The position numbers and the translations under genes were made by a program. Source: Methanoregulaceae archaeon (GTDB lineage Archaea; Halobacteriota; Methanomicrobia; Methanomicrobiales; Methanospirillaceae). From it: a DNA stretch of 36,618 nt. The stretch covers positions 1 through 36,618 of the forward strand of contig JAJFVA010000038.1 of assembly GCA_021371995.1 (NCBI GenBank), written 5' to 3'. The notes below the pieces were generated by a model. The model was not told the origin of the DNA. It did not search any database and worked only from the letters and a program-made list of their open reading frames with translations. This document shows, piece after piece, positions 11,529 to 25,802 of this stretch; within the stretch, counting starts at the first letter, position 1; the number at the start of each line of letters is the position of its first letter.

Positions 11529-11545
11529 TGCTGATAGTATCAGCA
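11529..11545 (+). promoter_or_regulatory. Palindrome in the 5' leader of secreted paralog 1
   Basis: TGCTGATA-G-TATCAGCA is a perfect inverted repeat. It sits about 25-30 bases after a TATA-like AATTATTTTTAA (about 11493-11504) and 20 bases before the ATG of the next gene. The second paralog has a related stem (TGCTGA...TCAGCA, 22885-22905) at the same relative place. It could be a 5' mRNA hairpin or an operator. Confidence 0.55.
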
Positions 11546-11565
11546 TGCCAGAGAGGAGGGATGTG

Positions 11566-12465
11566 ATGAAAAAACTCGCAATTCTGATTATCGGATTAAC
11601 ACTCCTGGCAGGGGTTGCCATGGCCGACCATGGTATCCCACCTGTACCGGAGACACAGGGTATCGTTACTTCGACGACGATCGATTCAGTCGGGAACTTT
11701 GCCTCGTCATCAGAGATCCAGTGGAGGATTACTGATTCCGAAGGCGGGCTCCCTGGGGTGCCCCCGCTCGCATTCATTGATGAATCAATCTATGAATCGG
11801 TCTACACAGAGGATACGGTATCAAATGGCGTCGGCCTGATCTTCTACGATAAGGAACTCGATATCGAGACCTCCGGCCAGATTTCAGGTGAATGGAACAT
11901 CGATGCGTTAAAAGAACTCGCTTTTGTTGGAATTGACGGAGCCCGGGTCACGTCGTCAGACACCATTTTCATCGATGGAGCCTCGATCCAGTACGTCACC
12001 GAAGAAGTAATGATCTGTCCGTTTGCAAGCGCTGCAACATCCGGCTTCCCGTCATACTGCAACCGGGCGGAAGCGGGGAGTACCATCGATATGACTGTCG
12101 CAAACGTCAGGACGACCTCGACCGACCGCTTCGTGATGCCATCTGGTGACCACCCGGTGGAACTGAACCACGATATCCTTGTCACTGAACTCATTGACGA
12201 TCTCCCGTCCCAGGGAATGGCGTCTGCCTCCATGGAAGTCCTGATACAGGAGGGCAGGGGTAACATCGTGGTTATCGAAGGCGAAGTTAATCCACAACAA
12301 AACGGGATACTAATAATAGTCATCGGGCCCGACCCGCTTATGGAGCGGATCGAGTTCTCGGAGGAGACGACCGTCTCCGGTGATATAACAACCTTCGAGA
12401 AACTCATGCACTATGAGTCCATGCTGACTGGCGGAAGCGACCCTGCACCGCTTCCAATAAAATAA
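11566..12465 (+). CDS. Exported protein of unknown function, paralog 1
   Basis: A 299-residue exported protein with signal peptide KKLAILIIGLTLLAGVAMA, cleaved before DHGIP. The mature part is beta-rich with no recognised domain; conserved stretches shared with the second copy at 22928 include PETQGIVTSTTID, VGLI-YDKELD-ETS, ELAFVGIDGARVTSSD, EAGSTIDMTVANVRTTSTD, and ITTFEKLMHYES. Two conserved cysteines (ICPF and YCNRAEAG) may pair. Compared with paralog 2 it has an extra hydrophobic loop (GNIVVIEGEVNPQQNGILII, about residues 238-257) and a short Pro-rich tail. ATG 11566 is chosen because GGAGG lies about six bases upstream, not the earlier ATGs at 11545 and 11561. The products look like abundant secreted or surface proteins; the function is unknown. 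Confidence 0.82.
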   Translation: MKKLAILIIGLTLLAGVAMADHGIPPVPETQGIVTSTTIDSVGNFASSSEIQWRITDSEGGLPGVPPLAFIDESIYESVYTEDTVSNGVGLIFYDKELDIETSGQISGEWNIDALKELAFVGIDGARVTSSDTIFIDGASIQYVTEEVMICPFASAATSGFPSYCNRAEAGSTIDMTVANVRTTSTDRFVMPSGDHPVELNHDILVTELIDDLPSQGMASASMEVLIQEGRGNIVVIEGEVNPQQNGILIIVIGPDPLMERIEFSEETTVSGDITTFEKLMHYESMLTGGSDPAPLPIK

Positions 12466-22927: not shown

Positions 22928-23743
22928 ATGAAAAAACTCGCAATCATGGTTATTGCACTAGTACTTCTTACTGGTTATGCCATGGCTGACCGTGGCATCC
23001 CCCAGGTCCCTGAGACCCAGGGCATTGTCACTTCCACTACCATTGATGCGGTAGGCAATTTTGCCTCTGCATCCGAGATCCAGTGGAGAATCACGACTGA
23101 TCCTGCCGGGCTTCCGACTATCCCCCCATTGGCAGAGGATTTTGCAATTTACGAATCGACATATCAGGAAGACACTGCAAGCAATGGGGTAGGCCTGATC
23201 CTCTACGACAAGGAACTTGACGTTGAGACCAGCAACCAGATCACCGGCCAGTGGAACATAGAGGCAACCAAGGAGCTTGCGTTCGTGGGTATTGACGGTG
23301 CACGGGTTACTTCGTCCGATGTCATCTTTGTCGACGGAGCAGCTGAAGACTACTGGACCGAAGATTTCGTGATCTGTCCATTCGCAACCGACGTTTCTGA
23401 GATCTTCCCGACATTCTGCAACAGGGCAGAAGCCGGCAGTACAATCGACATGACCGTTGCCAATGTCAGGACCACCTCGACAGACAGGTTCGTTATGTCA
23501 TCTGCCGACCACACGGTCGAGCTCAACCACGACATCCTTGTCACTGAGCTCATCGAGGACCTCCCGTCCATGGGGACCGCTTCCGCATACATGGAAGTCC
23601 TGATACAGGAAGCCGGAGCCGCTGAAGATGGAACGGAAGACTCACTTAAGGAGCGCATCGAGTTCTCTGAAGAGACCACCATCACCGGTGACATCACCAC
23701 CTTCGAGAAACTCATGCACTACGAATCCGGCATGGTAAGGTAA
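22928..23743 (+). CDS. Exported protein of unknown function, paralog 2
   Basis: A 271-residue exported protein, clearly the sister of the product at 11566: same signal peptide style (KKLAIMVIALVLLTGYAMA), same start of mature protein (DRGIPQVPETQGIVTSTTID) and near-identical blocks throughout. It lacks the hydrophobic loop of paralog 1, having instead an acidic AGAAEDGTEDS segment, and ends soon after LMHYESG. The start has GGAGGAA six to seven bases upstream. Strong promoter, good ribosome site and a private terminator suggest high expression. Function unknown; surface or secreted role inferred from the signal peptide. Confidence 0.85.
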   Translation: MKKLAIMVIALVLLTGYAMADRGIPQVPETQGIVTSTTIDAVGNFASASEIQWRITTDPAGLPTIPPLAEDFAIYESTYQEDTASNGVGLILYDKELDVETSNQITGQWNIEATKELAFVGIDGARVTSSDVIFVDGAAEDYWTEDFVICPFATDVSEIFPTFCNRAEAGSTIDMTVANVRTTSTDRFVMSSADHTVELNHDILVTELIEDLPSMGTASAYMEVLIQEAGAAEDGTEDSLKERIEFSEETTITGDITTFEKLMHYESGMVR

Positions 23744-23786: not shown

Positions 23787-24236
23787 TGGGGTTTTCCGGT
23801 TCTGTTGAAACCACCGGACTGCCCTCAGGGTCACGAAAAAAAACCATTGCCGGTAGAGCAGCCGGCGTTCTGCCTGGCATCCCTTTGCCTGGAATCGAAT
23901 CGTGAGCAGACAAACTGTTACAGGGCAGGTTGTTCTCATACACGGATATCAAGCGTCACCGCCAGGGCCAGACTACCTCCGGATACCGGTCATGTGGCCG
24001 AAGCGGGAAGTGAGCAATAACCAGCGGGACCGGGTTCATGCAAGTCCGGTACTGGCCATACCAGGGGGCATCACCTTCGAACCAGACACCCCCGGCGGAG
24101 CAAGGCACGATGGGTGCTCCAGTACTCATGAGCATCCTGTCCAGGGTTGGAGTAATATTGATGCACCAGTACAACGAGAACACATGCATCCAGCCGTTTT
24201 GCCCCCTTTGAAGCAGTGCTGGATGGAGGATCACGT
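23787..24236. other. 450-base gap without a supported gene
   Basis: Open frames on both strands here (for example 23902-24381 plus and 23956-24234 minus) have no start signal, domain or codon bias that fits the neighbours. The right end carries the GGAGG of the next gene (24224-24229). Nothing else recognised. Confidence 0.45.
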
Positions 24237-24497
24237 ATGGGAGATTTCGACCCGAAAAAACACACTGCCGAGGAGAGAGGATACGATGCCAGGGACAATT
24301 ATGTCCGTGGACTCAAGATGCCTCCAACAAGGTTCGAAAACATGGTACATGGCCACTCACCCGATGAACAGAAGAGCATGAGACAGCAGGTGGACGAGGC
24401 CGAAGCAAAGGGCCTTCGTACTTACCAGGTCAGGCACGCCAAGGGATACTATACCATTGAGAACGGGATCGTAATCGGAAGCGCGAAGGGGAAATAA
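24237..24497 (+). CDS. Small hypothetical protein (86 aa)
   Basis: A soluble, charged protein starting MGDFDPKKHTAEERGYDARD and continuing through PTRFENMVHGHSPDEQKSMR to TYQVRHAKGYYTIENGIVIG. The ATG at 24237 has a strong GGAGG seven to eight bases upstream, which decides the start against an in-frame codon at 24216. No domain was recognised. The first half is likely disordered or helical, the last 35 residues look like three short beta strands. No operon partner is evident. Confidence 0.7.
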   Translation: MGDFDPKKHTAEERGYDARDNYVRGLKMPPTRFENMVHGHSPDEQKSMRQQVDEAEAKGLRTYQVRHAKGYYTIENGIVIGSAKGK

Positions 24498-24668: not shown

Positions 24669-24767
24669 TTAAAAGACCCCCGTCCAGAATTCCCACCGCA
24701 GAATTGCACCCCCGACAATTACCAGTATAAGGAGCGCGATTAATACTAACCACCATTTCATTTCCAC
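24669..24767 (-). CDS. 32-aa single-helix membrane mini-protein
   Basis: Translation gives a single hydrophobic helix (MKWWLVLIALLILVIVGGAI) followed by a short polar/aromatic tail LRWEFWTGVF. The GTG at 24767 has AGGAGG seven bases upstream; an ATG two codons later is the alternative. The start lies two bases after the stop of the preceding mini-gene (24770-24772), so translation is probably coupled. Such single-helix proteins often act as small subunits or regulators of membrane complexes; no target is known here. Confidence 0.6.
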   Translation of the reverse strand: MEMKWWLVLIALLILVIVGGAILRWEFWTGVF

Positions 24768-24769
24768 GT

Positions 24770-24955
24770 TTATTCCTCCTCCGGAACATGTGGCAATTGG
24801 ATCGGTTCAAATATAATCCTATTCCTGGTCGGCAGGCCGGATGGGCCCGGCTCTTTCCTTTCATTGATTAGCCGGCGTTCATCCCTGGTTGTCACCCTGT
24901 TCGTCTGTGCGTTGCCGATCCAGATCGAATATGAGATTTTCCCCGATATATTCAA
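24770..24955 (-). CDS. 61-aa basic hypothetical protein
   Basis: Starts at TTG 24955 with GGTGAAGG about seven bases upstream. The sequence (NISGKISYSIWIGNAQTNRV, TTRDERRLINERKEPGPSGL, PTRNRIIFEPIQLPHVPEEE) is Arg-rich and ends in an acidic tail. No domain recognised. It lies between a zinc-ribbon gene and a single-helix membrane gene with 20-base and 2-base gaps, forming an apparent three-gene unit. Its reality rests mainly on this spacing and its start signal. Confidence 0.5.
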   Translation of the reverse strand: MNISGKISYSIWIGNAQTNRVTTRDERRLINERKEPGPSGLPTRNRIIFEPIQLPHVPEEE

Positions 24956-24975
24956 TGATCCTTCACCGATGTGAT

Positions 24976-25155
24976 TTATCGAATTTCATCCAAAAAGAGA
25001 TGACAATTCGGACACCACCATCCGACAGGAACAGAGCGTTGTTTATGATTCTCATCAAATATGTTGATGTAGGTCCGGTACATACGCTGCCGTCTCTTTT
25101 GTGTGCCGGATAATGAGGTTTGACATCGATTCGGGCATTGTGGGCTGGTACACAC
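24976..25155 (-). CDS. Small zinc-ribbon protein (59 aa), first gene of a mini-gene operon
   Basis: The protein has N-terminal cysteines (CTSPQCPNRC) and a C-terminal WWCPNCHLFLDEIR, together a likely zinc ribbon; the centre (RTYINIFDENHKQRSVPVG) is beta-like. The GTG at 25155 is chosen because a TATA-like GATTTATTG (about 25181-25189, minus strand) would start transcription right there; a TTG at 25170 gives five more residues. A multi-part palindrome lies just upstream (25195-25227). Two further mini-genes follow on the same strand. A DNA-binding or regulatory role is possible but unproven. Confidence 0.6.
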   Translation of the reverse strand: MCTSPQCPNRCQTSLSGTQKRRQRMYRTYINIFDENHKQRSVPVGWWCPNCHLFLDEIR

Positions 25156-25194
25156 AGTATTCCAACTCAATTATCCAGGCAATAAATCTTGGTA

Positions 25195-25227
25195 CAGGGT
25201 AAAATTTTACCCTGCAGGCAGGTAAAA
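25195..25227. promoter_or_regulatory. Stacked palindromic operator candidate
   Basis: CAGGGTAAAATTTTACCCTG (25195-25214) is a perfect 20-base palindrome. Its right arm also pairs with a third arm: TTTTACC (25205-25211) and GGTAAAA (25221-25227). Three TTTTACC half-sites thus alternate in orientation immediately upstream of the TATA box of the zinc-ribbon mini-gene. This geometry is typical of cooperative binding by a dimeric regulator; a hairpin is the alternative. Confidence 0.6.
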
Positions 25228-25409
25228 CAGGAGATTTTGATTCCTAGAACGGTATTGGGATATCTGCGTAAAAGGATTTCAGAGAATATTCTTCCGCTCC
25301 AATGCGAACAGGAAAAGGTTCAGGAGCACTCCTTTCACGGTGGTGATGACAACAGGAAAACAGGTACGCTTTTACCCACCTTATAACGAGGGTGAATAAA
25401 AAAATAGGT

Positions 25410-25802
25410 TCATTCAGGGATGCCAAACACGTTCTTTGTACCGGGGAGAAGGCAGTAGATAAGAATCAACGCACTCACGATAATTCCCGCGATGAGTGCC
25501 TCCCAGGAGGTCCCTCCGATGATTGCGATAAGGTCGAATAAGAGCGTCAAACCCGAGAAGATGATCGCAAACATCCATCCCTGTGGCTGCATTTCCCAGA
25601 GCATCCGGAAGAGCCAGAGGAAGAAGAAGGTGATCAGTACCCAGAAGAAAGCCCCGATCAGACTGAACGTGTAAAATGCCACCTGTCCGACATACACCGG
25701 AAGGATATGCAGATACTGGAGCGTGACTATGAAAGCATTCACTGCACCGAGGATCGCAAGGAATGCGATGAACGTTACGCCGAGAGGTCGGTTTGTTGTC
25801 AT
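25410..25802 (-). CDS. Small integral membrane protein (130 aa)
   Basis: Four hydrophobic helices: about residues 7-27 (GVTFIAFLAILGAVNAFIVT), 38-64 (VAFYTFSLIGAFFWVLITFF), 76-92 and 100-118. The N-terminus TTNRPLGVTFIAFLAILGA resembles a group of archaeal four-helix proteins of unknown function related to DUF2127-like families. The start ATG has AAGGAC about eight bases upstream and a TATA-like ATTTATAA just before that. No catalytic residues are evident. It is monocistronic and divergent from the following small gene. Confidence 0.75.
   Translation of the reverse strand: MTTNRPLGVTFIAFLAILGAVNAFIVTLQYLHILPVYVGQVAFYTFSLIGAFFWVLITFFFLWLFRMLWEMQPQGWMFAIIFSGLTLLFDLIAIIGGTSWEALIAGIIVSALILIYCLLPGTKNVFGIPE

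Follow-up and report, generated by a model that had tools for sequence, protein, structure and literature searches.

Three open frames lie close together on the minus strand of the contig analysed here, a stretch of 36,618 nucleotides from a Methanoregulaceae archaeon that we refer to as the window. They occupy positions 24976-25170 (64 aa from TTG), 24770-24955 (61 aa from TTG) and 24669-24767 (32 aa from GTG), and the gaps between successive frames are 20 and 2 bases. A preliminary description of this DNA gave these frames and gaps as they stand, and placed a perfect 20-base palindrome plus a third half-site within 25195-25227. The palindrome is indeed exact, at 25195-25214, and the half-site lies at 25219-25227. 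The features of the locus as we now read them are the following.

24669..24767, minus strand: coding for a single-helix membrane peptide of 32 aa from GTG 24767; its family has eight copies
24775..24782, minus strand: predicted Shine-Dalgarno sequence GGAGGAGG of the membrane-peptide gene, with G/A-rich counterparts in homologues
24770..24955, minus strand: 61-aa open frame, probably no gene; without homologue, and holding the promoter of the next gene
24808..24819, minus strand: GGATTATATTTG, the TATA-like element belonging to the membrane peptide, with counterparts in G010:C65, G011 and G082
24976..25155, minus strand: zinc-finger gene, 59 aa (VCTSPQCPNRC...WWCPNCHLFLDEIR), start GTG 25155, identified by homology and codon-position differences
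25180..25188, minus strand: GATTTATTG, a TATA-like element that precedes the start codon of the zinc-finger gene by ~32 nt; homologues have the same element
25195..25214, no strand assigned: CAGGGTAAAATTTTACCCTG, a perfect palindrome of 20 bases whose ends lie at -40 and -59 relative to GTG 25155
25219..25227, plus strand: third half-site CAGGTAAAA, in which one G of CAGGGTAAAA is missing

Comparison with homologues places the start of the zinc-finger gene at GTG 25155 and not at TTG 25170, because DNA similarity to the nearest relative begins exactly at 25155 and M/V-C is the conserved start of the family. Relatives were found in 22 of 101 related genomes by sequence search and in 46 of the 232 genomes of the order by profile search, the weaker of the profile matches spanning the C-terminal half only. 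A pattern scan of genome contigs gave named records among Methanoregula, Methanolinea and Methanoculleus MAGs, and a pattern scan of IMG/VR returned no viral relative. Between the window copy and that of G010 the differences by codon position are 8/12/33, and in comparisons with unsaturated dS most dN/dS values fall at 0.07-0.4; the frame is a real gene under purifying selection. Its third-position G+C is 0.43, compared with 0.62-0.75 in ordinary genes of the window, its codon usage is atypical for the window, and its distribution within the genus is patchy. Given this atypical base use and patchy distribution, the gene may be of foreign origin. The archaeal zinc-finger gene and its promoter block also occur on a Deltaproteobacteria-binned contig from Lac Pavin (L059, JAPLJQ010000514.1). 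The same lake is a source of Methanoregula MAGs, and L059 is possibly a misbinned archaeal contig.

In nearly all zinc-finger homologues a TATA-like element lies ~31-36 nt before the start codon. When one Methanoregula copy and its flanks are compared with copies of other genera, similarity begins near -45 and does not extend past the stop codon. Because of this conserved block and the conserved spacing from TATA element to start, we believe that the gene is probably a self-contained monocistronic unit that is leaderless or nearly so. In studied methanogens most transcripts have a leader, and 11-16% lack one (PMC4983044). A scan for sigma-70-type promoters and hairpin terminators, which is unsuited to archaea, gave results at chance level, and there was no Rfam match to a structured RNA at the locus.

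The cysteine pattern of the encoded protein (C2, C7-P-x-x-C11, W-W-C48-P-x-C51) is nearly invariant in the family, with C11 replaced by Ser in the G011 copy. The window protein has no match to a Pfam, NCBIfam or solved-structure family above cut-off. Its AlphaFold model (mean pLDDT 84.7, pTM 0.59) is all-beta, with one long hairpin formed by residues 26-33 and 39-47, and a fold search with this model found no significant match among solved structures. Under a published rule, CPxCG-related proteins have <100 residues, no additional domain and two Cys/His pairs separated by 7-40 residues, of which one or both are CPxCG-like; each pair encloses 2-3 residues, and CPxCG-like means CPxCG, CPxCx or CxxCG (PMC2253796). 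The window protein has 59 residues and no extra domain above the Pfam cut-off, its pairs C7-PNR-C11 and C48-PN-C51 have 36 residues between them, and its CPNCH motif is of the CPxCx form. Judged by these sequence motifs, it qualifies under the rule as a CPxCG-related small zinc-finger protein. Like archaeal proteins of that class, such as Brz of Halobacterium salinarum, it is shorter than 100 residues, has no other domain and carries two Cys pairs. It departs from them in that its first pair is CPxxC, G ends neither pair, and an additional Cys is conserved at position 2; it has no detectable homology to a named CPxCG-related family.

Among the very small proteins of archaea ~8% carry such a zinc-finger motif; Brz affects transcription (PMC2253796), and members of the class influence stress, biofilm and swarming phenotypes (PMC6562870). 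In the window protein, the Cys pairs would bind one zinc ion and keep the long beta-hairpin in place, with the basic central segment contacting nucleic acid or a partner protein. The analogy with the class, together with the basic middle region, leads us to regard the protein as most likely an accessory nucleic-acid- or protein-binding regulator, comparable to Brz and to the Haloferax zinc-finger mini-proteins. Most archaeal zinc-finger mini-proteins are unstudied, and here one forms a clear Methanomicrobiales family with a recognisable leaderless-type promoter.

The middle frame has a different standing. Within the 101 genomes it has no homologue, the best non-self match having E 0.025 and containing stop codons, and both the TATA-like element and the Shine-Dalgarno sequence of the membrane-peptide gene fall inside it. 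Its codon score lies below those of ten ordinary window genes; at this locus the score fails to tell real frames from spurious ones, since that of the zinc finger is low as well. We conclude that the 61-aa frame is probably not a gene.

The membrane peptide belongs to a family of eight copies in six genomes at E <= 4e-14, two of which are in the source genome. The copies follow the pattern KWW - hydrophobic stretch - I[VI]GGA[YI]xR[WY]xF, and second codon positions are conserved most. The sequences AGGATTATATT / AGGATTAATA stand at the place matching the TATA-like element in G010:C65, G011 and G082. On this comparative evidence the 32-aa frame encodes a genuine member of a separate small family and has a TATA-like element and a ribosome site of its own. 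G010 and G011 carry the zinc finger too, and the peptide genes there are on different contigs. The peptide would insert in the membrane, probably modulating a larger membrane protein, and most likely sits there beside that protein. MtrI of Methanosarcina mazei illustrates such a role for a mini-protein: it stands alone, lacks an annotation and modulates a membrane complex (PMC12774963). MtrI has 68 residues and is cited as an analogy only, with no sequence relation claimed.

Two small unnamed protein families, the zinc finger and the membrane peptide, are therefore real and have separate promoters. Of the three small genes proposed in the preliminary description, the zinc-ribbon-type and single-helix membrane mini-proteins survive, and the 61-aa frame, lacking a homologue, does not. 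The proposal that each frame has its own start signal holds for the membrane peptide, which has a Shine-Dalgarno sequence, and has to be revised for the zinc finger, which has a leaderless-type promoter and begins at GTG 25155. Both genes are of a kind readily missed by gene callers.

On one side the pair is flanked by a plus-strand gene for an 88-aa protein of unassigned function (24231-24497) and on the other by a minus-strand gene for a 130-aa membrane protein (25410-25802), neither of which belongs to a Pfam or NCBIfam family. In relatives that have the flanking genes, similarity ends at 24497 and at 25400. Because it stops at these points, and because the zinc-finger and membrane-peptide families are unlinked elsewhere, their adjoining in the window is most simply read as a lineage-specific coincidence. 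Only ~200 nt separate the two genes, and there may be read-through transcription in the source species.

Palindromes were counted genome-wide by pattern search and simulation. In a window of this composition, 0.1 perfect palindromes of at least 20 bases are expected, and a 9-mer like CAGGTAAAA is expected once in ~17% of shuffled windows. The palindrome is mildly unusual in the window, and more so beside a promoter; chance predicts a few per genome. It starts at the margin of the conserved promoter block and extends past it, and some 20 other promoters of the zinc-finger family lack it. Searching the genome with its 18-base core at up to 3 mismatches revealed no second site. As a candidate regulon site it was rejected on the same count, since it is itself the sole match.

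We lean towards the palindrome being a chance sequence without function: a few such sequences are expected in the genome, and this one is unique, unconserved in relatives and peripheral to the promoter block. Its place immediately upstream of the promoter, with an extra half-site beside it, nevertheless resembles a regulator site. It is conceivable, if on balance doubtful, that it is a genuine lineage-specific operator through which another DNA-binding regulator controls the zinc-finger gene. The twofold symmetry, the place directly upstream of the TATA element and the extra half-site speak for an operator, and the single occurrence in the genome and lack of conservation speak against it. If functional, the palindrome would be a site for some regulator of the zinc-finger gene alone, and in these comparisons nothing points to the zinc finger itself as its binder.

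The preliminary description had gone further, proposing that the zinc-ribbon protein autoregulates a three-gene operon by acting on the palindrome and third half-site. We regard this as very improbable. The frames are indeed closely spaced on one strand, a perfect palindrome that chance seldom places in a window lies beside the promoter, and archaeal small zinc-finger proteins can, as Brz illustrates (PMC2253796), affect transcription. Against this, each small gene belongs to its own family with its own promoter, which leaves the three-gene operon unsupported: the homologue-less middle frame, the promoter internal to it and the lack of linkage between the families all speak against the operon, and the three-gene order was not found elsewhere. 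Autoregulation has no comparative support either, the palindrome being single-copy in the genome and missing from all other family promoters examined. An operon would have been the more striking result, and that claim fails. We think it probable that the locus instead consists of two independent monocistronic small-protein genes that adjoin in a variable intergenic stretch, with a 61-aa frame that is no gene and a palindrome that is lineage-specific.

The zinc-finger family recurs as repeated copies in toxin-antitoxin islands. Such arrays were seen on short contigs of three Methanoregula-type genomes (locus L023 is G040:C27:1-9780, L055 and L021 are on G057:C57, and L024 is on G052:C92). G040:C27 has three copies, G057:C57 has four, one of them with an altered C-terminus, and G052:C92 has one intact and one broken copy. 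The copies are interspersed with MNT/HepT, PIN and Fic genes and AAA_14-DUF4143 ATPases. A piece of the 3' end of a HIT-domain gene comes before many of the array copies and recurs in places where there is no zinc finger. In two of the arrays an RNase III-like gene (Pfam Ribonucleas_3_3; L023:175-729 and L055:341-841) directly adjoins the first zinc-finger copy. The arrays give the impression that insertion or duplication took place repeatedly at a single site.

Could the zinc finger then be part of toxin-antitoxin systems, as an antitoxin or regulator? Its repeated copies among the MNT/HepT, PIN and Fic genes of G040:C27 (three) and G057:C57 (four) would suit such a role, as would the weak similarity of a distant Methanolinea relative to the MqsA/YgiT zinc finger (E 0.04 and 0.095). 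We nevertheless consider it unlikely. That relative reaches 13 bits, far under the curated cut-offs of TIGR03830 and TIGR03831 (61.8 and 20.2), and the window protein matches neither model; its likeness to MqsA/YgiT lies in a small zinc-finger region, and unlike them it has no helix-turn-helix part and no MqsR toxin alongside. Neither the window nor most genomes with one copy of the gene have a toxin next to it, and the modules near the array copies differ in type and carry their own partners. Slightly less likely still is a bolder version, in which the zinc finger is a mobile leaderless mini-gene that helps to run or stabilise Methanoregulaceae toxin-antitoxin arrays, the window holding a detached single copy.

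Some further observations concern the surrounding genes. The 88-aa protein has 75-85% identity to its counterparts in several relatives, and shorter, weak C-terminal matches to it are repeated in other genomes, with six in G024. Of 41 relatives, just 4 have the 130-aa membrane protein at E <= 1e-8. Elsewhere in the window, the plus-strand genes at 11545-12465 and 22928-23743, 11 kb apart, encode paralogous secreted-type proteins, both of which start MKKLAI and have stretches such as AEAGSTIDMTVANVRTTSTDRFVM in common.
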